Shown one piece after another: positions 8,535 to 55,630 of a DNA stretch of 64,000 nucleotides. A program made the position numbers and the translations under genes. The DNA is from Halolamina rubra. Its GTDB lineage: Archaea > Halobacteriota > Halobacteria > Halobacteriales > Haloferacaceae. The notes beneath the pieces were generated by a model. The model was given only the letters and a program-made list of their open reading frames with translations, had not been told where the DNA came from and did no database searches. The stretch is from contig NZ_BBJN01000012.1 in NCBI RefSeq assembly GCF_000739555.1, forward strand, positions 1 through 64,000. Reading direction: 5' to 3'. Each line of letters begins with the position of its first letter. Within the stretch, counting starts at the first letter, position 1.

Positions 8535-9922
8535 TCATTCCATGCCTGTGTTCTCGCGCAGCACCGACGCCGCCTCGTCGATGGCGTCGTCGATGCTCTT
8601 CCCGCCCTCGGTCACGTCGTAGAACATCTGCCCGAGCTGGAACGACGTGAACGCGGGGGAGGCGTAGGGGTTGGCGGGTTCGGTCTCGGCGGTGAACGGC
8701 TGGGTGTTGTCCGAGAACAGCGCCTCGCGCTCGCTCTGGATGGTCTCCTCCTCGAAGTTCTCGCTGAGGTAGTCCCAGCCGTCGCGGTACGCCGAGCCCG
8801 GCTCGTACCAGCTGTCGTAGATGGGGATGTTGTGGAACCGCAGCGCCCGCGCGTACTCGACGAGGCGCTCGCCGGTGACCATGTACTGGACGAACTCCTT
8901 CGCGCCCTCGGGGTTGGCGGAGCCCTTCACGAGGCGTAGCCGGTCGCGGCGGAGTTCCCCAGCGGCGCGTCGCGGTTGGAGCTGTTGTACGGGTTCGAGA
9001 CGCGCTTGGTCGCGTCGGCCCACTCGCGGTCCTGCCCGATCGACTGGGTCTTCGGGCGGCCGCCGGAGTAGACGGCCGTCGCCGTCGTCCCGCCGGCGTA
9101 GGACTCGTAGATCTCCCCCCAGTCCCAGTTCGTCGCCGTCGGCGAGTACTCGACCATCTGCTGGGCGCGTTCGAGCACCTCACGGACTCGGTCCCGGTTC
9201 TGCCCGCTGTCGAGCGCGACATTGACGGTGTCGCCGTCGCGGGCCGCGACTTCCGCGCCGTTACCCCACAGCCGCGTCCAGGCGTGGTAGGAGCCGTACA
9301 CCGTCGCCGACGTGGTGTAGCCGAGCCCGTAGAGGTCGTTGTCCGCCTCCGTGATCGCCTGTGCGGCCTCGCGCTCGGCCTCCCAGGTCGTCGGCGGCGC
9401 CAGCCCCATCTCGTCGTAGATGTCCGAGCGGTACCAGTTGTTCGTCACCGACGCGACCGCCGGCACGAGCCGGTGGTTCCCGTCGTAGACGAACCCGAAC
9501 TTCTCGGGCACTTTCTCCTCCTGCTCCTCGACGGCGTCGAGCACGTCGTCGACGGGCCGGAGGATGTCCTGTGTCGCGTACGCACCGATGCGGAACTGCT
9601 CGGCGTTGATGATGTCCGGCGGGTTCCCACCCTGGATCAGCTGACTGACGCGCTGCCCGTAGTCGCCCCCGATCTCCGTGAACTCGATGTCGACCTCGAT
9701 GTCGTGCTCCTCCTCGAAATCCTCCGCGAACCCGCGGAGCATCTCCTTGAACTGCGGCGAGTTGTTGTTCGAGATGTACTTCACGGGCTCTGAGCTCCCG
9801 CCGCCGCCCAGTCCGAGACAGCCTGCCAGCCCGGTCGAGAGCCCGCCGACGCCCGCTGCGGCGACGACGGCCCGTCGTGACACCTGCTTCCTGCTACCGT
9901 CTCCCGTGGGGTCCTGTCCCAT
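8535..9922 (-). pseudogene. Sugar ABC transporter substrate-binding protein, one-base frameshift
   Basis: Frame one runs from ATG 9922 to a stop at 8927 (331 residues); the rest of the protein continues in the next frame to 8535. Adding one C near 8933-8935 turns TGYAS-stop into GYALVKGSANPEGAKEF and gives an uninterrupted 462-residue protein, the normal family length. The N-terminus is a Tat lipoprotein signal: SRRAVVAAAG with a lipobox LAGC at about residue 35. The mature protein is a cluster B extracellular sugar-binding lipoprotein feeding the two downstream permeases. The rest of the operon is intact, so the frameshift may be a sequencing error rather than a true lesion. Confidence 0.88.
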
Positions 9923-9947
9923 GAGCCACGTTAATCTATCCGTACTT

Positions 9948-9955
9948 CATAAATG
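9948..9955 (-). promoter_or_regulatory. TATA-like box of the sugar ABC importer operon
   Basis: On the minus strand CATTTATG lies about 26-33 nt before the ATG at 9922 in an AT-rich patch, consistent with the operon promoter and a leaderless or nearly leaderless transcript. Confidence 0.5.
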
Positions 9956-10059
9956 TTGGGTGGGTATATTCGTTGATACTTTCGCCGAGGCGGGGGCTGC
10001 TGTACGCGAGGGAGTTTGGTTCCGCCCCCGCCCGGAGAACCAATGTCGGCGGCGTTCGG

Positions 10060-11115
10060 TCACAGGCGGCGTTCCACGTCGCGGGCGACCGCGAACGTCG
10101 ACGCCTCGCCGCCGAGATCCGGCGTGCGGGGCGCGTCCGGGTCGGCCAGCTGCGAACGCACGGCGTCGCGAACGCCCGCCGCGGCGGCCGTCTCGCCGAG
10201 ATCCTCGAGCAGCATCGCCCCCGAGAGCACCGTCGCGAGGGGGTTGGCGATCTCCCGGCCGACGATGTCCGGCGCCGAGCCGTGGACGGGTTCGAACAGC
10301 GAGGGGTACTCGCCCTCGGGGTTGATGTTCGCCGAGGGCGCCAGCCCCATGCTCCCCGAGACCACGGCGCCGATGTCGGTGAGGATGTCGCCGAAGAGGT
10401 TCGACGCCACGATCACGTCGAACGCCTCGGGCCGGCGGACGAGATCCATGCTCGCCGCGTCGACGAGCAGCCGCTCGACGGTCACGTCGGGGAACTCCGT
10501 CGCCACCTCCTCGACCACGTCGTCCCACAGCACCATCCCGTACGCCTGTGCGTTCGACTTCGTCACGTTCGTGAGGTGCCCCCGTCGCTCGCTGGCGGCC
10601 TGGAACGCCTGACGGACGATCCGCTCGACGCCCTCCCGGGTGAACAGCGCCGACTGAATCGCCACGTCGTTGTCGAACCCCTCGTGCTCCCGGCCGCCCA
10701 CGTCGGCGTACTCCCCCTCCGTGTTCTCCCGGTAGACGACGAAGTCGATGTCGCCGCCCTCGTACCCCCGCAGCGGGCTCTCGACGCCCTCGTACAGCAC
10801 CGTCGGCCGCTTGCAGACGTACTGGTTGAACGACTTCCGGATCGGCAGCAGCAGCCCGTGCAGCGTCACGTGGTCGGGCACGTCCGGGTGACCGACCGCC
10901 CCGAGCAGGATCGCGTCCCGCGGCGCCAGCTGCTCCAGCGCGTCGTCGGGCATCATCGCCCCCCGCTCGCGGTAGCGTTCCGTCCCCCAGTCGTGCTCGG
11001 TCACGTCGATCTCGAACCCGTACGCGTCGCCGGCGGCGCGGAGCACCGGCAGCGTCGCGTCGACGACCGTCCGCCCGATACCGTCGCCGGGGATCGTGGC
11101 GATGTCGTAGGTCAC
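10060..11115 (-). CDS. D-malate/tartrate dehydrogenase-like enzyme (isopropylmalate dehydrogenase family)
   Basis: A 351-residue member of the isocitrate/isopropylmalate dehydrogenase superfamily of NAD(P)-dependent beta-decarboxylating enzymes. Visible motifs are IATIPGDGIG at the N-terminus, RPTVLYEGVESPLRG, VYRENTEGEYA, the catalytic VTKSNA and HGSAPDIVG near the cofactor site. The loop GLLLPIRKSFNQYVCKRP resembles tartrate/D-malate dehydrogenases (TtuC/DmlA) more than LeuB. I prefer GTG at 11115 because a TATA-like CCTTTTGCG lies about 27 nt upstream; ATG at 11154 is an alternative. It is divergent from malate dehydrogenase, so both enantiomers of malate may be handled here; that is inference. 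Confidence 0.78.
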   Translation of the reverse strand: MTYDIATIPGDGIGRTVVDATLPVLRAAGDAYGFEIDVTEHDWGTERYRERGAMMPDDALEQLAPRDAILLGAVGHPDVPDHVTLHGLLLPIRKSFNQYVCKRPTVLYEGVESPLRGYEGGDIDFVVYRENTEGEYADVGGREHEGFDNDVAIQSALFTREGVERIVRQAFQAASERRGHLTNVTKSNAQAYGMVLWDDVVEEVATEFPDVTVERLLVDAASMDLVRRPEAFDVIVASNLFGDILTDIGAVVSGSMGLAPSANINPEGEYPSLFEPVHGSAPDIVGREIANPLATVLSGAMLLEDLGETAAAAGVRDAVRSQLADPDAPRTPDLGGEASTFAVARDVERRL

Positions 11116-11230
11116 GGGGGCGCTATCAGACACCTGGCGCAAAAGGGTGTTCATTGTTCACAAACCTCTCCGGCTTCCGTCCTCGCACTGACGCCCACGC
11201 GGCCGCCGACTCTCAGCCACCGCCATCGCT

Positions 11231-11240
11231 GGGTTTAATC
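11231..11240 (+). promoter_or_regulatory. TATA-like box of mdh
   Basis: GGGTTTAATC sits about 27-35 nt before the ATG at 11267, the position expected for a leaderless haloarchaeal promoter. Confidence 0.5.
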
Positions 11241-11266
11241 GCCGACTCGCCCAACTCTAACGCGTC

Positions 11267-12181
11267 ATGACGAAAGTCAGCGTAGTCGGTGCGGCAGGAA
11301 CCGTCGGCGCGGCCGCCGGGTACAACCTCGCGCTCCGGGACGTCGTCGACGAACTGGTGTACGTCGACATCCCCGAGCAGGAGGACGTGACCGTCGGGCA
11401 GGCCGCCGACGCCAACCACGGCGTCGCCTACGACTCGAACACGACCGTCCGGCAGGGGAGCTACGCCGACACCGCGGGCTCGGACGTGGTGATCATCACC
11501 GCCGGCATCCCCCGCGAACCCGGCCAGACCCGGATCGACCTCGCGGGCGACAACGCGCCGATCATGGACGACATCGGCAGCTCGCTCGCCGAGCACAACG
11601 ACGACTACGTCACCATCACGACCTCCAACCCCGTCGACCTGCTCAACCGCCACCTCTACGAGACCGGCGACCGCGACCGGTCGAAGGTGATCGGCTTCGG
11701 CGGCCGGCTGGACTCCGCGCGCTTCCGCTACGTGCTCTCGGAGCGCTTCGACACCGAGGTGGGGAACGTCGAGGCGACGATCCTCGGCGAGCACGGCGAC
11801 GCGCAGGTGCCCGTGTTCTCGAAGGTGCGCGTCGACGGCACCGACCCCGAGTTCACCGCCGACGAGCGCGAGGAGATCCTGGGCGACCTCCAGCAGTCGG
11901 CGATGGACGTGATCGAGCGCAAGGGCGCGACCGAGTGGGGGCCGGCGAGCGGCGTCGCCCACATGGCGGAAGCGGTCATCCGCGACACCGGCGAGGTGCT
12001 GCCCGGCAGCATCGTCCTCGACGGCGAGTTCGGCTACGAGGACACCGCCTTCGGCGTCCCGGTCAAGCTCGGCGAGAACGGCGTCGAGGAGGTCGTCGAG
12101 TGGGAGCTCTCCGACTACGAGGCCGACCTGATGGACGAGGCCGCCGGGAAGCTGCGGGACCAGTACGCGAAGATCGAGTAG
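11267..12181 (+). CDS. mdh: Malate dehydrogenase
   Basis: A 304-residue NAD-dependent malate dehydrogenase of the lactate dehydrogenase-like group, as known from Haloarcula and Haloferax. It oxidises L-malate to oxaloacetate in the TCA cycle. The Rossmann motif [16 protein letters not shown] starts at residue 8. Substrate and catalytic motifs follow: [31 protein letters not shown] and the catalytic His in [12 protein letters not shown]. The sequence is strongly acidic, as in the well-studied tetrameric salt-dependent enzyme. It functions in the same pathway as the succinate dehydrogenase operon at 54-57 kb. Confidence 0.96.
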
Positions 12182-12223
12182 ACTCGCCAACGTTTTTGCC
12201 GGCGGCGGCTGCACCGGCGGGGT

Positions 12224-13120
12224 GTGCACGACCGGTTACGGACCCCGGCGACGCTCCAGCGCCGCCGGATCGGCGTCTTCCTCCTCGTCGCCTTCGGCGT
12301 CTCGTGGGCGACGGCGCTGGTGATCTGGACCACCGGCGGCCTGACCGACAGCCCCGAACTCCTCGAGGGGATCACGCTCGCGACCGTCCTGCTGCCGACC
12401 GGCTACATGTTCGGCCCGGCGGTCGGCAACGTCGCCGCCCGACTCGCGACGAGCGAGGGGTGGGAGGACCACCGACTGTACCCCGAGTTCGACGGCACCG
12501 TGTGGATTTACGCCGCCGCGTGGCTGGCGCCCGCGGCGCTGACCGTCGTCGGCGCCGGGCTCTACTTCGCTGCCTTCCCCGGGCAGTTCGACCCGACGAT
12601 GGCGACGTTCCGCGACCAGCTGGCGAGCATGGGCGTCGGCGTCGACCCGTGGCTGCTGGCGGCGATCCAGATCGTCGCCGCGCTCACGGTCGCGCCGATC
12701 ATCAACGGGCTGTTCGCGTTCGGCGAGGAGTTCGGCTGGCGGGCGTACCTGCTGCCGAAGCTCTCTCCGCTCGGGCGGCGTCGGGCGATCGTCCTGACCG
12801 GCGCCATCTGGGGCGTCTGGCACTGGCCGGTGATCGCGATGGGGTACAACTACGGCTTCGACTACCCCGGGTTCCCGTGGACCGGGATGCTCGCCTTCCT
12901 CGCCTTCACCGTCGGCGCCGGCACGTTCCTCGCCGTCCTGACCGAGCGCGAGGGGAGCGTCTGGCCCGCGAGCGTGGGTCACGGGGCGATCAACGCCGTC
13001 GCCGGGATCTCGGTGCTGTTCGTCGCCGGCCAGCCCGAGAGCCTGCTCGGGCCGACGCCGGTGGGGCTGGTGGCGGCGCTGCCGTGGCTGGCGCTGGCGG
13101 TGTGGCTGCTCCGACCGTAG
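12224..13120 (+). CDS. CPBP family intramembrane glutamic endopeptidase
   Basis: A 298-residue membrane protein with about eight helices. The CPBP (CAAX protease/bacteriocin-processing, ABI) motifs are present: EEFGWR at about 168-173, WGVWHWPVI with His at about 200 and GHGAINA at about 250. In Rce1-like enzymes these Glu and His residues form the active site inside the membrane. The start codon is GTG at 12224; a T-rich TATA-like stretch at 12190-12199 supports it. Archaeal substrates are unknown. A second family member is at 61.5 kb. Confidence 0.88.
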   Translation: MHDRLRTPATLQRRRIGVFLLVAFGVSWATALVIWTTGGLTDSPELLEGITLATVLLPTGYMFGPAVGNVAARLATSEGWEDHRLYPEFDGTVWIYAAAWLAPAALTVVGAGLYFAAFPGQFDPTMATFRDQLASMGVGVDPWLLAAIQIVAALTVAPIINGLFAFGEEFGWRAYLLPKLSPLGRRRAIVLTGAIWGVWHWPVIAMGYNYGFDYPGFPWTGMLAFLAFTVGAGTFLAVLTEREGSVWPASVGHGAINAVAGISVLFVAGQPESLLGPTPVGLVAALPWLALAVWLLRP

Positions 13121-13157
13121 CCACAGGAGCTATGCGCTCGCGGGCCGAGGCGCCGGC

Positions 13158-13604
13158 ATGCGCCGCCGTGCCCTCCTCGCGCGCACCGCCCTCCTGACCA
13201 CCGCCGCCGGACTCGCCGGCTGTGCGGGCGTCGGTGACCAGACAGAGTCGCCGACCGAGAGCCAGACCGCCTCTCCCACAGCGACGCCAGCGACCGTGCA
13301 GACGCCCGATTCGGCCGCGATCGCCGCCGTCGACCACGACCTCACTCGCTCGAACGAGGGGGACGAGGACGAACTCGTCGCCGTCGACGCCGTGATCGAG
13401 AACGCGGGCGAGTCGGCTGCGACAGGCGTGCGTGCCCTCGCCCGGTTCTTCGACGAGAACGGGGAGCGCCTCGACGAGAGCGAGGCCCGGACCGACCGCC
13501 TCGCCGCTGGCGGACGCTGGGAGGTCGATCTCACCTACCCCGGCAGCGGCGTCGACGCCCGCGCCGTCGCCGACTACCGGCTCGTCGTCGAACTGGGCGA
13601 CTGA
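13158..13604 (+). CDS. Lipoprotein with FxLYD-like domain
   Basis: A 148-residue protein. The N-terminus has an RRR motif, a hydrophobic stretch and the lipobox GLAGC (Cys at about 22), the pattern of Tat-exported haloarchaeal lipoproteins. A Thr/Ser/Pro-rich linker (about 25-55) follows and the rest forms a single small beta domain with VDAVIENAGESAATGVRALA, resembling FxLYD domains that decorate cell-surface proteins. It would be anchored on the outer face of the membrane. Function unknown. Confidence 0.72.
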   Translation: MRRRALLARTALLTTAAGLAGCAGVGDQTESPTESQTASPTATPATVQTPDSAAIAAVDHDLTRSNEGDEDELVAVDAVIENAGESAATGVRALARFFDENGERLDESEARTDRLAAGGRWEVDLTYPGSGVDARAVADYRLVVELGD

Positions 13605-13667
13605 ACCGCCGCTGAGCAATCAGTGCCGCGCCGCGAAAAATGGGGTGTCGCGGTAGCCGGATCGCGG

Positions 13668-14972
13668 TTACTCGTCCGACGCCGCGTCGTCGGACTCGTT
13701 GTTGGTGAGCTCGTAGCCGAACCCGATCGTGTTGTCGGGCATGATCTCGGCGGTCCACTCGCCCGCGTCCGGCGAATCGAGCTCGTAGACGAACTCGGTT
13801 CGCTCGCTGCGGGTCGCGTAGGCGCCGTCCTCGGTCGCGCCCTGCTGGCGCTGGGCGCCGAGGTTGACCGAGCCGCGCTCGGTGACCTGGACGCGCTCGG
13901 CGTCGATGCGCTCGCCGTCGGGCGAGACGAACGTCACGTCGAAGCTCGGGTCGTCGGCGTTCTCGGCCGCGCGGTAGTTCTGCGGGGTGAGCGTCAGCGT
14001 GACGGTGTCCGTGCGCTCGGTGGTCGTGAACTCGACCTCGTAGGGCTCCTCGGGCTGCTCCCAGACGACGAAGTTGAGGTTGATCTTCTGCCAGTAGCCG
14101 TTGTCGTCGCGCCGGTTGGGGTCGGTGAGCCCCAGATCGATCGAGCTGTCGTAGCGCCCGCGGTCGGCGTCGGCGTCGGGCGAGATGGTGACCGTCACCG
14201 TCGCGGTCTCACCCGGCGCGATCTGGCTCGGCGCGTCGATGTCGATCCAGGACTGGTCGACCTGCTCCGGGCAGTGGGTGCCGTAGCAGTGGCCCCGCTG
14301 CTCGGCGCGCTCTGGGCTCAGCGGCACCGCCTCGTCGCCGGTGTTCTCGATCACGATCTGCTTGGTGACCGAATCGCCGGCCTCGACCTGCGTGTTGATG
14401 TACGTCTCCGAGCGGATCTTCACGGTCGGCTCCTTCCAGACGTTGACGCTGGTGTGGGCCGCGTGGACCGGTCGCGGCGGGCGGTTCGGCGCCGTCGCGA
14501 CGGTCTCGTCGGTGAACGCGATCATGCCGGAGTAGCGCGCGATCTCGGCGTCCTCGGGCACCGCGACGCTCACCTCGTACTCGACCTCCTCGCCGGCGTC
14601 GATGCTGTCGGGCCCGTCGATCTCGACCCACGAGGACTCGAGCGGGCTGCGGTCAGTCGGCGACGTGAACAGGTGGGGGTTCACGTCGACGGCCTCGTCC
14701 TCGCCGTTCTCGACGACGACGGTGAACGTCGCGCTCTCGCCGGGTTTGAGGTCGAGGTAGCTGTCCCGGGCGTCGACGTAGAGCCGCGTGTAGTTCGCGG
14801 GAGCGTCGTCGCCGGCCGAGCCGCTGTCGGAGCCGGTTGCGGTCGTGGTCGATACGGCTTCGTTCGGGGCGGGAACCGCTGCGGGCGTCCCACCGTCGGT
14901 CGGTGCGACTGCCGTCGCGACCGGCACGGCCGCCAGCGCGACGACGACTGCGATAAGGATGACTCGTTTCAT
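13668..14972 (-). CDS. Secreted surface protein with Ig-like beta-sandwich repeats
   Basis: A 434-residue protein with a Sec-type signal peptide (MKRVILIAVVVALAAVPVATA). After a linker rich in Ser, Thr and Asp, at least two beta-sandwich modules follow the pattern PGESATFTVVVENGEDEAV and PGETATVTVTISP, as in CARDB/COG1361-type surface proteins. A CYGTHC pair (residues around 225) probably makes a disulfide. I see neither a PGF-CTERM sorting signal nor a C-terminal membrane helix. I took ATG 14972 because it starts the signal peptide; the upstream in-frame extension is basic and unlike a surface protein. It probably contributes to the cell surface; no specific role is visible. Confidence 0.75.
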   Translation of the reverse strand: MKRVILIAVVVALAAVPVATAVAPTDGGTPAAVPAPNEAVSTTTATGSDSGSAGDDAPANYTRLYVDARDSYLDLKPGESATFTVVVENGEDEAVDVNPHLFTSPTDRSPLESSWVEIDGPDSIDAGEEVEYEVSVAVPEDAEIARYSGMIAFTDETVATAPNRPPRPVHAAHTSVNVWKEPTVKIRSETYINTQVEAGDSVTKQIVIENTGDEAVPLSPERAEQRGHCYGTHCPEQVDQSWIDIDAPSQIAPGETATVTVTISPDADADRGRYDSSIDLGLTDPNRRDDNGYWQKINLNFVVWEQPEEPYEVEFTTTERTDTVTLTLTPQNYRAAENADDPSFDVTFVSPDGERIDAERVQVTERGSVNLGAQRQQGATEDGAYATRSERTEFVYELDSPDAGEWTAEIMPDNTIGFGYELTNNESDDAASDE

Positions 14973-15087
14973 GGGTTGGCGTACGCCGACGACTCGCCTG
15001 GAGGGCGGAGGGCGGCGAACAGGCGATCGTTTACTTCCTTCTGACAAGTAATTACGGGAGTCTAAAACGGTGATTTGTGTCACCGGG

Positions 15088-16835
15088 CTACAGCCGCCGC
15101 TCGATCCGCTCGGCCGTCCGCGGGCCGACGCCGTCGACGTCCCGCAGCGCGGCCTCGCCGGCCTCACGAACCGCATCCACCGAGCCGAACCGGCGGAGCA
15201 GGCGCCGCCGCGTCTGGGGGCCGACCCCCTCCACCTCGTCGAGCGCCGTCGACACCTCGTCGCGGACGCTCTGGTGGTACTGGACCGCGAAGCGGTGGGC
15301 CTCGTCGCGGACGCGCTGGAGCAGGTGGAGGTGGGGCGCGTCGTCGTCGAACCGCTCCACCCCGTCGGGCGTGACGACCAGCTCCTCCGACTTCGCCAGC
15401 GCGACGCAGGGCACCTCCCAGCCGGTCTCGGCCAGCGCGTCCTGCGCGGCGGCCAGCTGCCCCTCGCCGCCGTCGATCAGCAGGAGGTCCGGATCGGGCC
15501 TGTCGTCCCGCCCCTCGACGGCCCGCTCGGCCCGCCAGCGCACCAGGTCGCGCATGTTGGCGTAGTCGTCGTTCCGGTCGCTGAGTTTCTTCCGGCGGTA
15601 GTCGGCTTTCTCGGCGCTGCCGCCGACGAAACACACGTCGCTGCCGACGACCGCCTTCCCCTGGGCGTGGCTCACGTCGAACCCCTCGATGCATTCCGGC
15701 CGGGGGACGTCGAGTGCCTGCCCCAGCGCGCCCACTGGGTCGTCGGCGCCGCCGACGCCGCTGCGGGCGTTCTTCAGCGCCAGCTCGACGAGCTTCCCCT
15801 CCCGGCCCGCGCCGGGCACGGACACCTCGACGCCCGCGCTCGCCAGCCAGTCGAGCACGTCCGCGTCGTCCGGCCGCTCCGAGAGCAGGATCGCGTCCGG
15901 GAGCTCCCGCTCGGCGTAGTACTGCGTCAAAAAGGCCGAGAGCAGGCTCGCGACGCGGTCCTCGCCCTCTGGCGCGTCGAGACGGTGGCGGGAGCGGTCG
16001 ACCAACTGGCCGGCGTCGGCGTGCAGCCGCGCGACGGTGGCGTCGCCGCCCTCGACGACCGCCGCGAGCACGTCGACCTCGCGCCGGCTGCCGGGCGAGG
16101 AGACCGCCTCGCCGCCCTCGCCGTGGAACGACTCGACCGCCTCGAGCCGGTCGCGGGCGTTGGCCGCGCGCTCGAACTCCGCCCGCTGGGACGCCTGCTC
16201 CATCTCCCGGCGGAGCGGGTCGCGAGGACGCCGGTCTCGCCCTCGAAGAAGCGGACCGCGCTCTCGACGTCCTCGCCGTAGCTCTCGGCGTCGACGGCGT
16301 CGACGCAGGGCGCCGAACAGAGCCCCATCTCGTGGTCGAGGCAGGGCCGGTCGCGGTTCTGGAACTTGTGGTCCGAGCAGCCGCGCAGCCCGTACGTCTC
16401 CCGGATCGCCTTCACGACCGTCTCGACCTCGCCCTTCCGGGTGTACGGGCCGAACACGGTGGCGGCGTCGTCCGGATCGCGGGTGATCTCGATGCGCGGG
16501 TACTCGTGGTCGGTGAGCTGGACCAGCGGGTACGACTTGTCGTCCTTCAGCCGGACGTTGTACCGCGGCTGGTGGCGCTTGATCAGGTTCGCCTCCAGCA
16601 GGAGCGCCTGGGTCTCGGTGTCGGTGACGGCGGTGTCGATCGCGTCGGCGCGGGCGACCATCTTCCGGATGCGGTCGCTTCGCGGGTCGGCGTAGGAGCG
16701 CACGCGATCGCGGACGTCGACGGCCTTCCCGACGTACAGCACGGTCTCGGCGTCGCCGTCGCGGTCGAGGAACTGGTAGACGCCCGGCTCGCGGGGGAGG
16801 TCGCCGGCGCGCTCGCGCAGCTCGCTCGCGTCCAT
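15088..16835 (-). pseudogene. uvrC: Excinuclease ABC subunit C, one-base frameshift
   Basis: UvrC makes the two incisions in nucleotide excision repair with UvrA and UvrB. The frame from ATG 16835 carries the GIY-YIG nuclease domain (about residues 15-95: [26 protein letters not shown]) and runs to FEGETGVL, then shifts. The next frame resumes at [15 protein letters not shown] (UVR domain) and contains the RNase H-like nuclease ([22 protein letters not shown]) and the C-terminal HhH repeats. Adding one base near 16220-16222 yields a 582-residue full-length UvrC. All functional motifs are preserved on both sides, which argues for a recent mutation or consensus error. Confidence 0.93.
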
Positions 16836-16884
16836 CTATCCGCGATACGGGACGGGCGCGTTTGAGCGTGACGCCCGCCACCGA

Positions 16885-17286: not shown

Positions 17287-17482
17287 GATCTGTCGCCCGT
17301 TCGTGGGCAGTGCTACCACACAACTCGACACCGATTAGCTGTGCTGACCCTACCTGTGCCCGCGTGTCGTCGGATATCCCGCCGTCCGTGTTCAGGAACG
17401 GACTGGTTTGGGTCGCGATACCGACGCCGCGGGCGACACGCGCGACCGCCGGCTACAAGCCGCGCCCACCGCAACCACGCCC

Positions 17483-17740: not shown

Positions 17741-17800
17741 TCCCCGAGCGCGAGGCGCCCACCCGACAGAGTGCCGACCTGTCGATCCCGCGGCCGAAAC

Positions 17801-17808
17801 CCTTTATC
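17801..17808 (+). promoter_or_regulatory. TATA-like box of the ABC-2 exporter operon
   Basis: CCTTTATC lies about 23-30 nt before the ATG at 17831 and supports that start as leaderless. Confidence 0.5.
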
Positions 17809-25195: not shown

Positions 25196-25282
25196 GCACC
25201 CACCTGACACACCCACGGACATAGGGTTGTTCACCGGCGCCGGCCCGCGGGGTTTATGAACAGAGCGGTCCTGCGCCCGCTC

Positions 25283-25650
25283 ATGAAGGTGCTGCTCGGG
25301 ATCGGCGGAAGCGACGACTCCATACGGGCGCTGGAACGGGTAGTCGCCCGGACGGCCGAGGTTGGCGACGAGCTCACCGTCGCGATCGTCGAGAACCCGC
25401 GGTCGCCCCGCTCGCGCGAGGAGATCGCCGAGCGGACGCGCGAGGAGCTCGACGCCGCCGGCGTCGACGCCGAGATCCGGCAGGTCGAGGGCGACCCCGG
25501 GAGCGAGCTGGTCGACATCGCCGAGCGCGAGGGGTACGACGAGATCGCGCTGGGCGGCGGCCAGACCAGCCGATGGGGAAGATCAACGTGGGGAGTATCG
25601 CGGAGTTCGTCCTGTTGAACGCCCACACGAGCGTCAAGCTGGTTCGGTGA
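25283..25650 (+). pseudogene. Universal stress protein (UspA family), one-base frameshift
   Basis: The frame from ATG 25283 gives MKVLLGIGGSDDSIRALE and a normal Usp fold up to ALGGGQTS, then shifts. Adding one C near 25570 continues it as PMGKINVGSIAEFVLLN and a 122-residue protein ending at the TGA at 25648-25650. The restored part holds the late Gly/Ser nucleotide-binding motif of ATP-binding Usp proteins. A TATA-like GGTTTATG about 25-33 nt upstream supports the start. The stop lies 2 nt before the GNAT gene, implying an operon. As sequenced, the product would end in an unrelated tail at 25618. Confidence 0.85.
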
Positions 25651-32451: not shown

Positions 32452-32810
32452 TCAGTGGCGCCGCCAGAGCAGGTAGGCCCCACCGACGGCCAGTATCGCG
32501 CCGCCGAGGCGGTCGCCGGCGGGGTGGACCGCGAGCGCGACGCCGGCCAGCAGCGACAGCCCCGCGAGGTAGTCGGGCAGTTCGAAGCGCGGGGCGGGGT
32601 CGCTCGCGGGCGTGAACGCGCGGTCGAGTTCCTCGCGGCCGACGTGCCGGAGGTCGCCCGTCGCCTCGCGGTTCCCGGCGGCGTCGGTGAGACGCAGGAG
32701 GGTCACGCGGTCGTCGTCGCCGCCGCCGACGCCGACGACCCGGAAGACGGCGCCGGCGGCTCGCCCTCGGTCAGGCGGTAGTGATCGTAGACTGCGGGCT
32801 CGTCGGCCAT
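32452..32810 (-). pseudogene. Small membrane protein, one-base frameshift
   Basis: From ATG 32810 the frame reads MADEPAVYDHYRLTEGEPPA, then shifts; the adjacent frame continues VFRVVGVGGGDDDRVTLLRLTD to a C-terminus with two hydrophobic stretches (LAGLSLLAGVALAVHPAGD and GGAILAVGGAYLLW). Adding one base near 32750-32754 restores a 119-residue protein. It begins 2 nt after the stop of the pspAB-like gene, so both are probably one operon. Restored, it would be a cytosolic beta-rich domain with a C-terminal membrane hairpin; no family recognised. Confidence 0.65.
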
Positions 32811-32812
32811 CG

Positions 32813-33484
32813 TCACTCCCAGGGGTGGCCGCCCGGCGAGTCGGGCCAGAGCGGGTACCAGTGGGATTCGTCGTCCTCGATGTCGAGCTCGCCGTCCAGC
32901 ACCGAACGGAGCTTGAACTCCGCTTTCGTGTTGCGGTCGTGGTCGCCGCTGGGGCAGAACGGGTAGTATGCGCCGCGGCGGAAGGAGTAGATCCAGTAGG
33001 CGCGATCGGTGCTGGCGCGGGTGGCGCTCGCGCCGCACTCGCCGCGTTTGCCGCCGTTCTCGGCGGCGTCGCTGTCGGCCTTCTCGAAGCCGAAGACGGC
33101 GGCAAGCAGCCGGGAGCCGAACCCCTGCTCCACGAACTCGTCGGCGGCGAAGTGGACGCTCGTCACCAGGTCCTCCGGGTCGTCGTCGACGAGGATCACC
33201 CAGTGGTAGCCGTGGTCGTCCTCGTGGCGGCGGAACTCGGTGCCCGTCTCCGCCTCGCCCGCGCGGAGGATCGTCTCGACCTCGTCGACGGCGTCGGCGA
33301 ACGCGGTGCTGTCGACCCGGGAGAAACAGAGCGCGGCCGCGCCGGCCGAGCGGTAGCCGAGTTCGGCCTCCATCGTGACGTAGGCCGTGCTCATGCCGAA
33401 CAGCGCCTCGGGGTCGGCCGCGCTCGCGGCGTCGGCCTCCGCGCGCACGCCGAGGACGGACTTCAGCGAGTCGAGAATGCCCAT
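32813..33484 (-). CDS. pspAB: PspA-associated protein PspAB
   Basis: A 223-residue protein matching what I know as PspAB of haloarchaea: N-terminus MGILDSLKSVLGVRAEAD, then LFGMSTAYVTMEAELGY and a C-terminus RAYWIYSFRRGAYYPFCPSG and WYPLWPDSPGGHPWE. It is soluble with no signal peptide. PspA-associated proteins are linked to membrane-stress response; no pspA or htpX is visible in this window. The following gene (frameshifted, with C-terminal membrane hairpin) is 2 nt away and may be its partner. Confidence 0.75.
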   Translation of the reverse strand: MGILDSLKSVLGVRAEADAASAADPEALFGMSTAYVTMEAELGYRSAGAAALCFSRVDSTAFADAVDEVETILRAGEAETGTEFRRHEDDHGYHWVILVDDDPEDLVTSVHFAADEFVEQGFGSRLLAAVFGFEKADSDAAENGGKRGECGASATRASTDRAYWIYSFRRGAYYPFCPSGDHDRNTKAEFKLRSVLDGELDIEDDESHWYPLWPDSPGGHPWE

Positions 33485-46804: not shown

Positions 46805-46899
46805 GGCCGGAGGGTGTTCGGCCCGGGATTAAGGCGCGTCGGTTCGCGGGGTGCCGCTGGCGCCCGGCTTTAAGTTGGCTGCGCGTCAACCCGTGGCGT

Positions 46900-47787: not shown

Positions 47788-47877
47788 GGCGCCCGGCCCG
47801 AGTCCGGCTGGCGCCCTGCCGACCGGCTCGCGGTTGCCCATCTTTTTACGACGCCATCGTGACCCAACTGTCGTACG

Positions 47878-49538
47878 ATGCCGTGGGTTCCGGGAGTTCC
47901 GTCGTTCGTCCTGTTCGGTATCAGCCTGCTCTCGGCGCTGCTCGCGGTCGCCGTCCGACGCACCCGGAGCGAACGCTACGTCGGCGGCTTCGTCGCGCTC
48001 GTCGCCGTCATCGGCGCGTGGGCGCTCAGCTACGGCGTCCAGCTGGGGTTCGGGAGCCGCGCGGCACAGCTCCCCTGGTGGCAGCTGACGCTGGCGGTCG
48101 CGGGGTTCATCCCGACCGCGTGGCTGCTGTTCACGCTGCGCTACGCCGGGAAGGACGCGTGGCTCACTCGTCCGGCCCGCTGGCTGATGGTGTCCGAGCC
48201 CGCGGTGTTCGCGGCGTTCGTGCTCACCAACCCGCGCCACGGGCTGATCTGGACCGAGTTCCGCCTCGCGGCGGCGCCGGTCGGGGTGTTCGCCCCGGAG
48301 TTCGCGGTCGGCTACTACCTCCACATCGCCTACGCCTACGCGATCGTCGGGTTCGCCAGCTACCTCGTGCTCCGGACCGCCGCCCGCTCCTCGGCCCTCT
48401 ACCGGCGACAGGCGGGCACCCTGCTCGCCGCGGTAGCGCCGCCCTGGGTCGCCCACGTCGCGTTCACGCTCAGGGCTAGCCCGGTGCCGGGGCTGGACCT
48501 CACCCCGTTCACGTTCGGCGCCACGGTCGTGTTCATCGGCGTCGCGCTGTTCCGGTTCGACCTGCTCGACCGCACGCCGATCGCCCGCGCGGCGGCGCTG
48601 GACGTGGTGGGCAACGGGCTGGTCGTGCTCGACGCCGAGGGGATGGTCGTCGACGCCGACGAGCGCGCCCGGCGCGTGCTCACGCCGGCGCCGGCGGTCG
48701 GCACGCACGTCTCGTCGTGTTCCCCGACACCCCGCTCGAGCGGCTCTCGGGGACCACCGTCGAGAGCGAGACCGCGGCCATCCGCCGGACGTACGAGGTG
48801 CAGGTGTCGCCGCTACGGGGCGCCGACGACCGGCTCTCCGGCCAAGCGCTGGTGCTCCGGGACGTGACCGACCGCCGCGCGTACGAACAGCGCCTGCAGG
48901 TCGCCAACCGGGTGCTCCGGCACAACCTCCGAAACGACATGAACGTGGTCCACGGGCTCGCCGGACGGATCGCGGCCGGCGACGCCGACGACCCCGCCGC
49001 GGTCGCGGCCCGGATCCAGTCGAAAGTCGACGGCGTCGTCGAAACCAGCGAGAAGGTGCGGGAGATGACCCGGATGGAGCCCTCCTCCGTCGACGACGCG
49101 GCGCCGACCGAGCTGGGGACGGTCGCCGAGGAGGTGGCCACGCAGTTCGACGGCGAGGGGGCGGCGACCGTCGAGTGTGAGCTCTCGCGGGCGCCCGCGG
49201 CGGTCGCCGACGAGTCCGCGCTCGCGACCGCGCTGTCGAACCTGCTCGAGAACGCCGTCGAGCACAACGAGTGCGACGAGCCCTGGGTCCGCGTGGACGC
49301 CGAACGGAACGGCGACCGGGCGTGGCTCCGGGTCGTCGACGACGGGCCGGGGCTCCCCGAGGAGGAGCGGGAGGTGCTCCGCCGCGAGACGGAGACGCCG
49401 CTGAAACACAGCCGTGGGCTCGGCCTCTGGCTCGCCTCCTGGAGCGCCCGCGCGGCCGGCGGCGAGCTCGCCGTCGAGTCGAGCGGCCCCGACGGGACGA
49501 CGGTCCGGATCGAGTTCCCGCCGGCCGACCGGGGCTGA
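47878..49538 (+). pseudogene. 7TM sensor histidine kinase, one-base frameshift
   Basis: The frame from ATG 47878 encodes seven helices (HisKA_7TM-like sensor: VPSFVLFGISLLSALLAVAV and onward to VVFIGVALFRFDLL), then the start of a PAS domain (VVLDAEGMVVDADERARRVL). It shifts near 48716-48720. The next frame gives FPDTPLERL, the phosphoacceptor HisKA motif VLRHNLRNDMNVVHG and an HATPase domain (LSNLLENAVEHNE, DDGPGLPEEER, SRGLGLWLASW). Adding one base restores a 553-residue kinase of normal architecture. No response regulator is adjacent, as is common for haloarchaeal kinases. Confidence 0.88.
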
Positions 49539-49576
49539 CCACACAGCCTTTCCCCGCAGGCGCCAGAGCCCCGGGT

Positions 49577-50329
49577 ATGCGCGTCACGCTACTGGGCACG
49601 GGGAGCGCGATGCCCGTCCCCGACCGCGTCCAGACCGGCCTGCTGCTCGAACGCGACGACCGCGCGCTGCTCGTGGACTGCGGCGCCGGCGTCCTCCACC
49701 GCCTCTCGACGACGGACGTGGGCTACGAGGGCGTCTCGACGGTACTGCTGACGCACCACCACCTCGACCACGTCAGCGACCTGCTCGCGCTGCTGAAGGC
49801 GCGCTGGCTCGCCGGCGAGACCCACCTGGAAGTGATCGGGCCCGCCGGCACCAAGGCGCTGCTCGACGACCTGCTCTCCGTCCACGACTACCTCGAGGGG
49901 CGGGTCGACCTCTCGATCCGGGAGATCAGCACCGGCGTCGAGTTCGAGGCCGCCGGGTTCGAGATCGCGACCCACGAGACGGTCCACTCGATGGACTGTC
50001 TGGCCTACCGGTTCGCCGGAGGGGAGGACGGGGCGGAGTTCACCTTCGGCGCCGACGGCGAGGCCAGCGCGTCGATCGCCCGCTTCGCCGACGGCTCGGA
50101 CACGCTGCTCCACGACTGCTCGTTCCCGGACGAGGTCGACGTGGACAACCACCCGACGCCGACCCAGCTCGGCGAGGCGCTGGCCGGGACCGACATCGAC
50201 CGCCTCCTCCTGACCCACCTCTACCCCCACACCGAGGGGAAGCACGAGGAGATGATCGAGAGCGTCGAGCGCGCCGGCTTCGACGGCGACGTGGCGGTCG
50301 CCGAGGACGGGATGCGGTTCGAGGTGTGA
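49577..50329 (+). CDS. MBL fold metallo-hydrolase, RNase Z-like
   Basis: A 250-residue beta-lactamase-fold hydrolase. The metal site reads LLTHHHLDHVSD (H-x-H-x-D-H core), LLHDCSFPDE and LLLTHLYPH. It begins MRVTLLGTGSAMPVPDR, the opening of the RNase Z/PhnP/ElaC group. It is shorter than full RNase Z (about 300) and lacks the exosite arm I would expect, so it is more likely a phosphodiesterase-type paralogue. It is followed 2 nt later by a DNA glycosylase gene. Confidence 0.85.
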   Translation: MRVTLLGTGSAMPVPDRVQTGLLLERDDRALLVDCGAGVLHRLSTTDVGYEGVSTVLLTHHHLDHVSDLLALLKARWLAGETHLEVIGPAGTKALLDDLLSVHDYLEGRVDLSIREISTGVEFEAAGFEIATHETVHSMDCLAYRFAGGEDGAEFTFGADGEASASIARFADGSDTLLHDCSFPDEVDVDNHPTPTQLGEALAGTDIDRLLLTHLYPHTEGKHEEMIESVERAGFDGDVAVAEDGMRFEV

Positions 50330-50331
50330 CC

Positions 50332-50988
50332 GTGGACGAGACAGCCACACCGTCGGAAATCGACCCGGAGGATGCCCACGAGCGCCTCAGCGAGGACGCG
50401 TACCTCGGACCGATCGCCGCCGAGGTCGGCCCCGTCTCGCTCGACCCCGCAGAGGACGCGTTCGAACGCCTGATCCGCTCGATCGTCAGCCAGCAGGTGT
50501 CGGTCGCGTCGGCGGCGGCCACCCGCGAACGCCTGCACGACGCCGTCGAGGTGACACCCGCGGGGATCCGCGCCGCCGACGACGAGCTGCTGCGCGACGC
50601 CGGCCTCTCGCGACAGAAGACGCGCTACGTCAACGAGATCGCGGACCGGTTCGCCGAGGAGGGGTGGAGCCGCGACTCGTTCGCCGGGATGGACGAGGCC
50701 GAGGTGCGCGCGACGCTGACCGACATCACCGGCGTCGGCCCGTGGACGGCCGACATGTTCCTGCTGTTCGTGCTGGGTCGGCCGGACGTGTTCCCCGTCG
50801 GCGACCTCGGCGTCCGCGAGGGGCTGAAGACGCTGGTCGACCACCACGGCGAGGACCCGGAGATGACGCGGGGGGAGATGACCGCGTTCGCGGAGCGCTG
50901 GGCGCCGGTCCGGAGCTACGCGGCGCTGTACCTCTGGCAGGTGGAGGAGGAGCTCGGCGAGCGCGTCGGCGACGTGGTCGGGGAGTGA
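50332..50988 (+). CDS. DNA-3-methyladenine glycosylase (AlkA type, HhH-GPD)
   Basis: A 218-residue base-excision enzyme that removes alkylated purines. The helix-hairpin-helix ITGVGPWTADMFLLF is followed by the catalytic Asp in VFPVGDLGVREGL, the HhH-GPD signature. RSIVSQQVSVASAAATRERL is the conserved early helix. The start is GTG 50332, 2 nt after the preceding stop, so it is coupled to the MBL hydrolase. No iron-sulfur cluster cysteines, as expected for AlkA rather than EndoIII. Confidence 0.92.
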   Translation: MDETATPSEIDPEDAHERLSEDAYLGPIAAEVGPVSLDPAEDAFERLIRSIVSQQVSVASAAATRERLHDAVEVTPAGIRAADDELLRDAGLSRQKTRYVNEIADRFAEEGWSRDSFAGMDEAEVRATLTDITGVGPWTADMFLLFVLGRPDVFPVGDLGVREGLKTLVDHHGEDPEMTRGEMTAFAERWAPVRSYAALYLWQVEEELGERVGDVVGE

Positions 50989-51021
50989 GCGACGGGAGGG
51001 GACCACCTGCAGTACGGTCGC

Positions 51022-51654
51022 TCACCCGCCCGCCAGCCAGCGGTCGACGCCGACGATTCCTGCACCGAGCGCGGCGATGCCGAGGCCGAGCGAGACGATG
51101 TAGAGCAGTTGCCCCGTCGCCGGCTCCGTCGTCGTCGTGCAAGTCCCGGTAGCCGTCGTCGTCGACCCGCCGTTCGCCGCGGCGCTTCCCTGCCCCGTAC
51201 AGCTCTCGGTCGTCACGGTCGGCTGGGCGACGACGCCCTGCGCGGCCAGCAGCAGGCCGATCACGAGCGTGCCGGCGGCGACGGCGTAGCCGAACTGGCC
51301 GAGCGTCCGCGTGTCGCTCCCATCGGCCGTCACCGGTCCCAGTCGGCTCCTCAGCACCCTGCCGAGTGCGGCGACGACGACCGCGAACAGGTAGAACGTC
51401 ACGAGGAGGCCGGCGTCGAAGGCGAGACCCCGTGTCAGGGGGAGCATCTCCGCGACGGCGTAGGCGACGTGTTCCAGCCCGAGCAGGCCGTCGTAGAGCA
51501 CGATGACGACCAGGTAGGGCGGAACGATCACCGGCGTGCCAGCAACTGGGGGATACAGGACGGGGAGGAACCACCCGCCGGCGAGGAGCGCGAACAGGGC
51601 GAGGGCGGTGCGGTCGACGAGGGCCGAGGCGACGGCGCCGGAGGGCTTCGCCAT
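51022..51654 (-). CDS. Four-helix membrane protein, unknown function
   Basis: A 210-residue membrane protein with about four or five helices (ALALFALLAGGWFLPVLYP, VVIVLYDGLLGLEHVAYAV, GLLVTFYLFAVVVAALG and two near the C-terminus). An extracellular loop holds TTESCTGQGSAAANGG and GTCTTTTEPAT with a Cys pair and many Thr. The C-terminus is GIVGVDRWLAGG. ATG 51654 is preferred because the longer in-frame extension is basic and soluble. No family recognised. Confidence 0.7.
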   Translation of the reverse strand: MAKPSGAVASALVDRTALALFALLAGGWFLPVLYPPVAGTPVIVPPYLVVIVLYDGLLGLEHVAYAVAEMLPLTRGLAFDAGLLVTFYLFAVVVAALGRVLRSRLGPVTADGSDTRTLGQFGYAVAAGTLVIGLLLAAQGVVAQPTVTTESCTGQGSAAANGGSTTTATGTCTTTTEPATGQLLYIVSLGLGIAALGAGIVGVDRWLAGG

Positions 51655-51746
51655 ACGCCCCGTTCGTGCCGCGGGGGTATTACGACTCGCGTCGGCGGCG
51701 GTGACAGGGGCTGTCACCGCTCGCCGGTCTTTCGACTGCTTGGGCG

Positions 51747-52532
51747 CTACGCGGGGTCGAGGTCGCCGGGCGACTCGACCCGCCGGGCGTCCTCGCGGAG
51801 CGCTTCGAACGCCGACTCGGCCCACGCGAGCAGGTCCGGGTCGGTCCCCTGGAGGCAGGCCTGGAGGTGTCCTTCCGCGTACGCGCCGAGCAGGAGCGAC
51901 TCCTCGCCGAGGGCGAGGCCGAACGGAATCTCGCCGTCGCGGACGAACAGGTCCAGGGGGCCGGCCCGGAGCACCGCCGCGAACTCCAGCGGCCCCAGTT
52001 CCTTCGCCCGCCGCGCCGTCGTCGTCGACAGCAGGAGCTCCGTCCGGACGCCGTCCAGCGCCAGCGCGGCGTGGGCCTCGTGGAACGCTCTCGAGAGCAC
52101 CGGCGAGCAGACCCGGATTCGGTCGCCGTCCATCTCCCGGAGTTGCTCCGTGTAGGCGTGAATCGGTGCCTGCGGATCGGCCTCGGAGGCCACCACGAGG
52201 TCGGCGTCGGCCAGCAGTTCCGCCCCCGGTGCGTCTGCGGGATCGAGATGCGAGAGCAACGGGATGGATTCGCCGATCCGCCGCAACTGGCCGAGGTAGT
52301 CGGCGTGCGCGCGAGCGATCGAGTCGCCGGCAGCGGTGAGTCGGTAGCCGTCCTCGCAGTGGGCGACCCAGCCGCGACTCTCGAAGGCGGCGAGGTTGCG
52401 CTGGATGCTCCGGCGGGCGGGGTCGAGGTCGGCGACCAGCGTCGACGGCGACGCCGGCGCGTCGCGAAGGCGTTCGAGGAGGGCGAGCCGGTCCGGCGAG
52501 TCCGCGAGGAACCGGGCGGTGTCGTCGGCCAT
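51747..52532 (-). CDS. Winged-helix transcriptional regulator with FilR1-like sensor domain
   Basis: A 261-residue haloarchaeal regulator. Residues 1-85 form a winged helix (FLADSPDRLALLERLRDAPASPSTL, PARRSIQRNLAAFESRGWVAHCEDGYRLTAAG). The remaining 170 residues match the FilR1/DUF1724-like middle domain often found behind archaeal HTH domains, with LLLSTTTARRAKELGP. It is probably a cytosolic repressor or activator of unknown targets. It lies 69 nt downstream of the DUF4396 gene on the same strand, so read-through is possible. Confidence 0.82.
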   Translation of the reverse strand: MADDTARFLADSPDRLALLERLRDAPASPSTLVADLDPARRSIQRNLAAFESRGWVAHCEDGYRLTAAGDSIARAHADYLGQLRRIGESIPLLSHLDPADAPGAELLADADLVVASEADPQAPIHAYTEQLREMDGDRIRVCSPVLSRAFHEAHAALALDGVRTELLLSTTTARRAKELGPLEFAAVLRAGPLDLFVRDGEIPFGLALGEESLLLGAYAEGHLQACLQGTDPDLLAWAESAFEALREDARRVESPGDLDPA

Positions 52533-52600
52533 GCTCCGCGTCTCGGGGGCGAGCGAGAAAAGTCTCCGCGTGGTTCGGCCAGGTGTCGACGCCGCGTGCG

Positions 52601-53257
52601 CTACATCGCCGAGGGGTCGCCCATCCCCTCCTTCACGCCGGCGTGGAGCAGCCCGAGGTTGATCGGGAACGCCGCGAGGAACCCCAGCGAGAGCGACACC
52701 GCGAGCGACGCCCAGAACACCGGCTCGCCCATCGTCGCCTCGCCGGCGAGGTAGATGTCCGAGCCGATGGCGACGGCCTCCATCGCGACGATGCTACCGG
52801 ACTCGCTGTACACCGCATCCGAGAGCGCCTCGCGGAGGCCGACGCCCTCCTGCAGCAGGGGGCCGACGGTGAACGCGACGCCGAAGGTGTACGCGAGCGT
52901 GAACGTGGTGGCGACGACGCCGACGGTGTTCAACAGCAGGATCCCGGCCGCGAGCGTGACGCCGAGCACCTCGCCGACGCCACAGCCAGAGTAGCAGTGC
53001 GCCGTCGAGCGCATCCCGCGGCGGACGAACGTGTCCTCGGGGATCTGGGTCCGGCCGCTGTACCAGTACACCGCGAGGCCGAGGACGCCGGAGTACAGCA
53101 CCGTGAGCGTCCAGACCAGCTTCATCATCGACGGCAGCGCCCGGTTGTTCCGGCGCAGATCGAGCCAGAGCGCCCCCACGGAGACGAGGGAGACGGCGAC
53201 CCACGCGAGCACCAGTTCCAGCGTCACCAGGTCGTGGAACGCCTGCTGGAGACTCAT
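52601..53257 (-). CDS. DUF4396 family membrane protein
   Basis: A 218-residue membrane protein with about five helices. The distinctive loop is MRSTAHCYSGCGVGEVLG, with H-C-x3-C, then long hydrophobic helices with few charged residues (ILLLNTVGVVATTFTLAYTFGVAF). I know this signature from DUF4396. The His-Cys-Cys group could bind a metal ion. It follows a NikR-like regulator by 43 nt on the same strand, suggesting metal-responsive control; that link is inferred. Confidence 0.78.
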   Translation of the reverse strand: MSLQQAFHDLVTLELVLAWVAVSLVSVGALWLDLRRNNRALPSMMKLVWTLTVLYSGVLGLAVYWYSGRTQIPEDTFVRRGMRSTAHCYSGCGVGEVLGVTLAAGILLLNTVGVVATTFTLAYTFGVAFTVGPLLQEGVGLREALSDAVYSESGSIVAMEAVAIGSDIYLAGEATMGEPVFWASLAVSLSLGFLAAFPINLGLLHAGVKEGMGDPSAM

Positions 53258-53300
53258 CGGGGACGAGTAGCCGACCCAGCGGTTTGGGCGTGACGGCCGG

Positions 53301-53693
53301 CTACCCCGTCGGCTGGAGGAACATCACGTTCACTCGCCCGACGGCGTCGAAGTCCCGGAGCGCGTGGACGAGTTCGCGGATGCGTCCGGCGTCGCCGGAA
53401 CAGAACACCGTCTCCAGACACCAGTCGCCGTGGTGGAGGTGCTGGGTCGTCCCGATCACGTCCTGGTACTCGTGCTGGACGGTGTGGAGGTCGCCGATGA
53501 CGAGCGTGTGCTCGTAGTCGAACGCCAGCGCCGCGACGGCGTCGCCGTCGATCTCGGCGAGCGTGGTGTGGCGCTCGACGTACTCCTGCATCGCCTCCCG
53601 GACCGCCCGCGAGCGCGACTCCATCCCCTGTTCCTGCCACGTCTCGTCGAACTCCTCCAGCACGTCGCCGGGAACGTTGAGGCTCGTTCGCAC
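53301..53693 (-). CDS. NikR-like ribbon-helix-helix regulator with ACT-type C-terminal domain
   Basis: A 130-residue protein if it starts at GTG 53693 (MRTSLNVPGDVLEEFDETW). The first 45 residues are a ribbon-helix-helix DNA-binding domain (ESRSRAVREAMQEYV). The C-terminal 80 residues match the NikR ACT-like ligand domain: LVIGDLHTVQHEYQDVIG and TTQHLHHGDWCLETVFC. The His/Cys ligands are one residue out of register compared with nickel NikR (see findings). It precedes a DUF4396 membrane protein that it may control. Confidence 0.85.
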   Translation of the reverse strand: MRTSLNVPGDVLEEFDETWQEQGMESRSRAVREAMQEYVERHTTLAEIDGDAVAALAFDYEHTLVIGDLHTVQHEYQDVIGTTQHLHHGDWCLETVFCSGDAGRIRELVHALRDFDAVGRVNVMFLQPTG

Positions 53694-53928
53694 AGGTCGA
53701 CTGCGCCGCCGGCACACTTAGCGATTGGCACACCCGCCACGTTCGCTGGTTCCGACCGCTGACCCTCTCCGCTTCCGTTTCCCCACCTCAACGAGTTCGT
53801 CGCCACCCCCTCGTCACTCGTACTGATCGTGCTGGGGGCTGGGTTCCTCTCGCGGCCCTCGAGCGGCCGGTTCCCGGCCGCGACACACGGGGAACACGTT
53901 CGGTCGACGGCGTGACCGATACGGCAAG
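53694..53928. other. Intergenic region before sdhC, no gene seen
   Basis: No ORF with haloarchaeal protein character occurs between the NikR-like gene and the sdh promoter. It carries an inverted GGCCGGTTCCCGGCC-like stretch at about 53861-53880 and nothing else I can name. Confidence 0.4.
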
Positions 53929-53938
53929 TTCTATACCC
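53929..53938 (+). promoter_or_regulatory. TATA-like box of the sdhCDBA operon
   Basis: TTCTATACCC lies about 26-35 nt before the sdhC ATG, giving a leader of a few nucleotides at most. Confidence 0.55.
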
Positions 53939-53963
53939 CCTCCGAACCGAATCATCCTGTTAC

Positions 53964-54356
53964 ATGAGTCAGTCGTACGATCGAGGTACCGTCGAGGACT
54001 TCGGGCGGTGGCGCTCCTTCACCGCCGGCATGTGGGCGTGGCTGTTCCACAAGTTCACCGGCTGGGTCCTCATCGGCTACCTCTTCACACACATCGCCGT
54101 GCTCTCGACGGCACTGACCGGCGAGGCGGCGTACAACAACACTATCGTCGGGCTGGAGAGCCTCGCCATCGTGCGCCTGCTCGAGGTCGGGCTGCTCGCG
54201 GTGGCGGTGTTCCACATCCTCAACGGGGTCCGCCTGCTGTTCATCGACCTCGGGAAGGGGCTCGAGGCACAGGAGGAGAGCTTCTACGCGTCGCTGGTGA
54301 TCACCGGCGCGATCACGATCGCCAGCGTCCCGACGTTCGTCTCGGGGGTGTTCTGA
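53964..54356 (+). CDS. sdhC: Succinate dehydrogenase cytochrome b subunit
   Basis: A 130-residue membrane anchor with three helices. Haem and quinone ligands are expected among the His in [21 protein letters not shown] and [12 protein letters not shown]. It anchors the SdhAB catalytic part to the membrane, where electrons from succinate go to menaquinone. It is the first gene of sdhCDBA with 1 nt before sdhD. Confidence 0.92.
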
Positions 54357-54357
54357 G

Positions 54358-54726
54358 ATGGCCGAACACTACTCCTCGTTCGACCGCTCGGGCAAGAAGT
54401 GGTTCCTGCAGCGTGTCACGGCGGCCTTCCTGGTCGTCGTGCTCGCGTTCCACTTCTTCCTCCTGCACTTCGTCAACCACGCTGCCGACGTGACGTTCGC
54501 CGGCACGTCCGCCCGGATGAGCACCTGGACGTACTTCTCGCTGATGGTGCTGTTCCTGCTGACGGCGACGTTCCACGGCGTCAACGGCGTCCACAACGCG
54601 ATCGTCCACCGGGACGGCGTCGACGGCTGGAAGCAGACCGCCGTGACGGCGGTGCTGGTCGTCGCCAGCCTGATCATGGTCGTCCAGGGGCTGCGAACCG
54701 CGCTCGTCTGGACCAACCTGTTCTAA
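54358..54726 (+). CDS. sdhD: Succinate dehydrogenase hydrophobic membrane anchor subunit
   Basis: A 122-residue protein with three helices (VTAAFLVVVLAFHFFLLHFV, FSLMVLFLLTATFHGVNGVH, VTAVLVVASLIMVVQGL). His residues in FHFFLLHFVNH and FHGVNGVHNAIVH are candidate haem/quinone ligands. It is paired with sdhC and followed by sdhB 2 nt later. Confidence 0.9.
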   Translation: MAEHYSSFDRSGKKWFLQRVTAAFLVVVLAFHFFLLHFVNHAADVTFAGTSARMSTWTYFSLMVLFLLTATFHGVNGVHNAIVHRDGVDGWKQTAVTAVLVVASLIMVVQGLRTALVWTNLF

Positions 54727-54728
54727 CA

Positions 54729-55630
54729 ATGAGCACGCAAACCGAACCACCCGAACAAACCGACGACGAAACAGAATCGACGCCGGAGGCGGAGCCCGAA
54801 CCGGAGCCCCGGAGCCCCGGCCAGCGCCGCCGGGACGAGAAGGCCGCCCGTGCCGCCGAGCGCGAACGCGAGGAAGCCGAGGCGGAACCGGATCTCGGCG
54901 ACGACGCGATCACGCTGAAGGTGTTCCGCTACGACCCCGAGGTCGAGGGGAAGACCGAGCCGCGCTTCGACACGTTCCAGATCCCCTTCACGAAGGGGAT
55001 GACCGTGCTCGACGCGCTGATCGAGGCGCGGGACACGTACGACTCCTCGCTCACGTTCCGGCACTCCTGCCGGCAGGCGGTCTGTGGCTCCGACGCCCTG
55101 TTCATCAACGGGCGCCAGCGCCTGGGCTGTCAGACCCAGGTCGCCGATCTCGACGGCGACGTGGTCCGGGTCGAGCCGCTGCCCCACCAGGACGTGGTGA
55201 AGGACCTCGTCGTGGACATGGAGCACTTCTACGACCAGATGGAGGCGGTCGAGCCGTACTTCCAGACCGAGGAGACGCCCGACGGCGAGCTGGAGGAGCA
55301 GTTCCAGACGCCGGAGAACCGGGAGAAGATCAAGATGTCCACCCGGTGTATCTGGTGTGGCGCCTGCATGTCCTCCTGCAACATCGCCGCCGAGGAGAAC
55401 GAGTACCTCGGCCCCGCGGCGATCAACAAGGCCTACCGGTTCGCGATGGACGACCGGGAGGGCGAGGAGATGAAGGAGCACCGCATGGAGCTGATCGAAC
55501 AGGAGAACGGCGTCTGGCGGTGCCAGACGCAGTTCTCGTGTACCAACGTCTGTCCGAAGGATATCCCGCTGACCGAGCACATTCAGGAGCTCAAGCGGGA
55601 GGCGGTCAAATCTAACCTGAAGTCTGGTAA
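54729..55630 (+). pseudogene. sdhB: Succinate dehydrogenase iron-sulfur subunit, one-base frameshift at its end
   Basis: The protein has an acidic, charged N-terminal tail (1-58), a [2Fe-2S] site (C114, C119, D122, C134 in CRQAVCGSD and RLGCQT) and a second domain with C207, C210, C213, C217 (CIWCGACMSSC) and C265, C271, C275 (SCTNVCPKDIP) for the other two clusters. The expected ending NLKFW-stop is missing one T near 55623 (AAG TCT GGT rather than AAG TTC TGG TAA). As sequenced the frame runs on to 56477 inside sdhA, giving a 582-residue chimera. With the T restored the protein is 300 residues and stops 2 nt before sdhA. Confidence 0.93.

Follow-up and report, generated by a model that had tools for sequence, protein, structure and literature searches.

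Six one-base gaps in a Halolamina rubra contig, in all likelihood artefactual and of dual origin: a fixed-interval base loss and probable scattered consensus errors

The window analysed here covers the first 64,000 bases of contig C60 from Halolamina rubra; the genome (2,955,001 bases in 71 contigs) is 92.94% complete. PMC8058077 cites a draft genome of H. rubra, possibly this one. It contains six genes which, according to an earlier note on this DNA, each lack exactly one base, i.e. those for the solute-binding protein of an ABC transporter, UvrC, a universal stress protein, a small conserved protein, a histidine kinase and SdhB (Table 1). Local DNA alignments against Halolamina orthologs confirmed the missing base in all six genes. 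As comparators we used six Halolamina genomes (G001-G006), among them H. pelagica CDK2 (G002), H. salifodinae DSM 26232 (G003) and H. pelagica CGMCC 1.10329 (G006); G001, G004 and G005 are other members of the genus. Five of the genes are short relative to four to six of the six relatives, and the solute-binding protein gene is short relative to its single aligning relative.

Table 1. Coordinates of the interrupted genes and related features in the window (contig C60)
Feature	Position	Strand	Observation
ABC transporter solute-binding protein gene	8535..9922	-	frame change ~8915-8934, one base short; SBP_bac_1 PF01547 in 8927-9922
Conserved spacer between genes	14998..14999		one base short vs 5/5 relatives shown; 3 clean supporters after filter
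uvrC	15088..16835	-	frame change ~16221; one base short vs 6/6 relatives
Universal stress protein gene	25256..25622 (end approximate)	+	frame change ~25570; Usp PF00582; short vs 6/6 relatives
Small conserved protein gene	32470..32830 (ends approximate)	-	frame change ~32758-32761, one base short
End of first 32,760-base block	32759..32760		fixed-interval one-base loss; coincides with the small-protein site
Histidine kinase gene (7TM sensor + kinase)	47878..49538	+	frame change ~48718; short vs 6/6 relatives
sdhB	54903..55624	+	frame change in last codons (~55615-55623), proper stop lost

The solute-binding protein gene carries a -1 shift near position 8934 when compared with the 416-aa ortholog of G006, the only relative that aligns across the site. 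A domain search places the two halves of UvrC in different frames (PRK14668 model positions 1-202 in 15927-16835 and 201-577 in 15088-16881), and the UvrC piece of the window is 95% identical to that of H. pelagica CGMCC 1.10329. The histidine kinase is likewise divided between frames, with HisKA_7TM (PF16927) in 47878-48867 and the kinase models in 48717-49538. The small protein has 118 aa in G001 and G005, and a protein-versus-DNA scan gives a -1 shift relative to the proteins of G001, G004 and G005; at the DNA level its gap (~32752-32761) is seen against four of the six relatives (G002, G004, G005, G006), while the other two align badly there. A Pfam search with the intact G005 ortholog matched 0 families. 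For the solute-binding and universal stress protein genes, the SBP_bac_1 and Usp matches agree with the names given in the note. For sdhB, reading of the alignment shows the coding end to be one base short relative to 6/6 relatives, the aligner having placed the gap in the spacer; the total length differs from that of G006 only, because the sdhB-sdhA spacer is one base shorter in the five other relatives. The frame of sdhB (54399-56477) retains the domains (PRK05950 5-236 of 238), but it has lost its stop, gains a foreign tail and overruns into sdhA. The gap at 14998 shows that such an event can also strike a non-coding stretch.

To place these gaps in context, frame-change clusters were counted with the protein-versus-DNA scan in syntenic stretches. 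Clusters backed by at least two relatives made up 4 of all 13 in the window, 2 of 10 in G006, 0 of 9 in G005, 2 of 11 in G003, 0 of 5 in G001, 3 of 10 in G004 and 16 of 25 in G002. The count for the window is just above those of the comparators (0 to 3), near the 3 of G004, whose clusters vary in gap size and are less well supported at their flanks, and below the 16 of G002. The solute-binding protein and sdhB clusters are each backed by one relative. Further possible frame changes, each backed by a single relative, occur in the window at about 29511, 30887, 37379, 45102, 59768, 61341 and 63491; for four of them this relative is G002, which is itself rich in errors. When DNA indels were scanned under a strict requirement for three relatives, most sites dropped out, and one private deletion each was left in the window, G003 and G002 and none in G001, G004, G005 and G006. 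There is a clear excess over chance, and it comes from a scan of orthologs elsewhere in the genome and from a position rule, not from the raw cluster count.

The ortholog scan covered 260 kb of three other contigs and was confined to 128 genes (132,255 nt) with orthologs of matching length in G006 and G005. We found 13 frame changes, 12 of them -1 modulo 3 and one +1. The same scan of 102 genes in G006 and of 103 in G005 returned 2 and 6 events, respectively, all with poorly aligned flanks or large gaps; clean one-base events, i.e. one-base changes with both flanks above 0.8 identity, were absent. It had also been claimed that all events are deletions; this is true within the window, but not genome-wide, given the single +1 change in a G7 run at C63:64693. 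One-base gains relative to both relatives are found at this site, which lies in an RNase HII gene, and in a run of A at C61:59095. Eight of the 13 events are scattered (seven losses and the one gain in the seven-G run) and five fall near block ends: since these five, together with the small-protein site, lie near 32,759, 65,518 and 98,277, every multiple of 32,759 in six contigs was examined.

The rule that emerged is the absence of a base behind each contig position 32,759 x k, so that every 32,760 original bases lose one. In this first set of six contigs 8 of 11 block ends could be aligned, and all eight lack one base, seven when compared with all of their aligned relatives and the one in the window when compared with 4/6. 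At five of the eight sites the reported gap coincides with 32,759 x k, and at the other three it lies 1-4 bases away, in repeats or mismatches. Further block ends behave alike: C56:32759 and C63:98277 are each positive against 2/2 relatives, C20:65518 against 5/6 (the shift in the sixth being equal modulo 3) and C42:65518 against 4/4 aligned relatives (two more unaligned), a further three bases being missing against each of these four. Overall, the loss is seen at 12 of the 13 block ends that could be aligned, on seven contigs (C20, C37, C42, C56, C60, C61 and C63). The thirteenth, C43:32759, falls in a variable spacer and counts neither for nor against the rule; C61:98277 and the ends tried on C52 and C58 gave no alignment and stand outside this count. 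Among the genes struck by block losses are those for NosZ, TrpE and a Hef nuclease. A second one-base gap relative to both relatives was seen at C56:32848, about 90 bases from the block end.

As a control, random sites of the same contigs were aligned in the same manner (374 of 600 aligned), and only 2 of the 374 were one base short relative to all aligned relatives. The codon-frame control gave 2/37, within 65 of 80 named loci. Block ends number 36 across the 16 contigs for which length was taken into account. A codon test that needs no relatives, run on 21 further block ends, detected a -1 shift at 13, a +1 shift at one and no shift at the remaining 7; its background of -1 calls was 198 in 2000 random sites. 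This test gives false negatives, as three of the seven ends without a call (C56, C20:65518 and C42:65518) are positive by alignment. A Pfam search on three-frame read-throughs of the C43 and C56 stretches found 0 families in six frames.

The fixed-interval loss is in all likelihood a position-dependent data-handling fault, in a file or in a program. Chunk-boundary (buffer) faults exist in sequence-handling software, and the loss resembles them in that one character disappears per block and position alone is decisive. The value of 32,760 is a multiple of both 60 and 70, and no larger multiple of either lies below 32,767; this suggests that wrapped sequence lines were handled within a signed 16-bit limit, where an off-by-one error whenever two pieces were joined might have removed the base. 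To our knowledge, no genome record with a loss every 32,760 bases has been described, and none was apparent from titles and abstract openings among the papers listed by a literature search. We consider it very improbable that the bases at block ends were lost in the genome copy analysed here and not in the public record: the six relatives come from the same source, and at the equivalent multiples they show a one-base deletion in 0/28 cases for 32,759 (0/27 for 32,760 and 0/28 for 32,768).

The scattered class consists of the five other window sites and the eight of the 13 outside it, none of which follows a block. In the small set of eight deletions that passed a clean-context filter (six scattered sites failed it and were excluded), seven affect runs of two or three, as compared with 40% of bases in runs of at least two (P 0.0085). 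Genes hit by scattered events encode, among others, a SufS-type cysteine desulfurase, an RNase HII, a response regulator, an ABC ATPase and an M20 peptidase. The 13 shifted genes have a ratio of first plus second to third position changes of 0.217, and the 115 intact genes one of 0.249; per-gene ratios do not differ between the two groups (Mann-Whitney P 0.68), so that relaxed selection in the shifted genes was not found and constraint appears normal. Nor is there a true nonsense change in the 128 genes, the single flagged in-frame stop being located upstream of the likely true start. Gene decay was rejected. The five scattered gaps of the window resemble ordinary read errors, and of the readings considered sequencing error probably fits best, above decay; the scattered events as a whole likewise look like errors rather than mutations.

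A different view of the five scattered gaps is that they are real, recent frameshifts, e.g. of a repair-poor or laboratory-passaged lineage. Polymerase slippage likewise makes deletions in runs, and a very recent mutation is inseparable from an error by sequence alone. However, this would require five such mutations in the ~58 kb of the window compared and eight in 132 kb of genes elsewhere, with conserved genes among the targets and with neither true nonsense changes nor relaxed selection in the 128 genes (the lesion count covering nonsense changes), in an assembly that drops bases by position alone; we therefore regard real frameshifts as very improbable. Slighter still is the chance that the gaps are real and that a high frameshift load in conserved genes is borne via slippage in transcription or translation, restoring enough product. 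Expression of the genes through programmed or tolerated ribosomal frameshifting would agree with the good conservation of the pieces on either side of each break, but it is scarcely credible given that the shift is absent from the aligned relatives at the six sites and that the spacer at 14998 carries the same kind of event. Natural short overlaps of separate genes, which may imitate a -1 shift and could draw on the background of -1 calls at random sites in the codon test, can practically be dismissed, as in the relatives one single gene spans each of the six sites or ends there.

Taken together, the six gaps are almost certainly assembly errors from two sources, block loss and scattered consensus errors. 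A program or file step would have dropped one base per 32,760-base block, and the small-protein site is of this kind; the other five would go back to single-base consensus errors scattered over the sequence, in many cases undercalls of short runs. The original proposal of systematic consensus deletion thus survives as the best reading, but not as a single class, since the block loss (~32,759) and the five scattered gaps are two classes. The feature is in all probability artefactual, with the two causes named, and brings no new biology; the cell most likely has an intact UvrC, SdhB and kinase. Nothing in the analysis shows any of the three to be absent, and the conditional warning that the cell would lack UvrC is not to be drawn. 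More generally, this genome is no basis for claims that a gene is absent, in that about one in ten of the conserved genes tested is split (13/128), and the fixed 32,760-base loss offers a simple signature with which draft genomes can be screened for faults that mimic biology.

A comparable but denser case is H. pelagica CDK2, a PacBio-based assembly, for which, according to PMC5331504, PacBio and MiSeq reads were obtained and the three final scaffolds equal in number those of the PacBio-only assembly. Its 16 clusters, mostly -1, lie in ~70 kb (C1:2480001-2560000), and it has a -1 of its own in uvrC. A hot spot in uvrC shared by the two genomes was rejected, as the gaps are some 18 alignment columns apart. 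As in CDK2, many one-base deletions split conserved genes in H. rubra and completeness is lowered (79% in CDK2, 92.94% in H. rubra). Unlike CDK2, which shows 0 losses at three tested block multiples, H. rubra has fewer scattered events and the fixed-interval loss in addition. Consensus errors may be the cause of the 79% completeness of CDK2.
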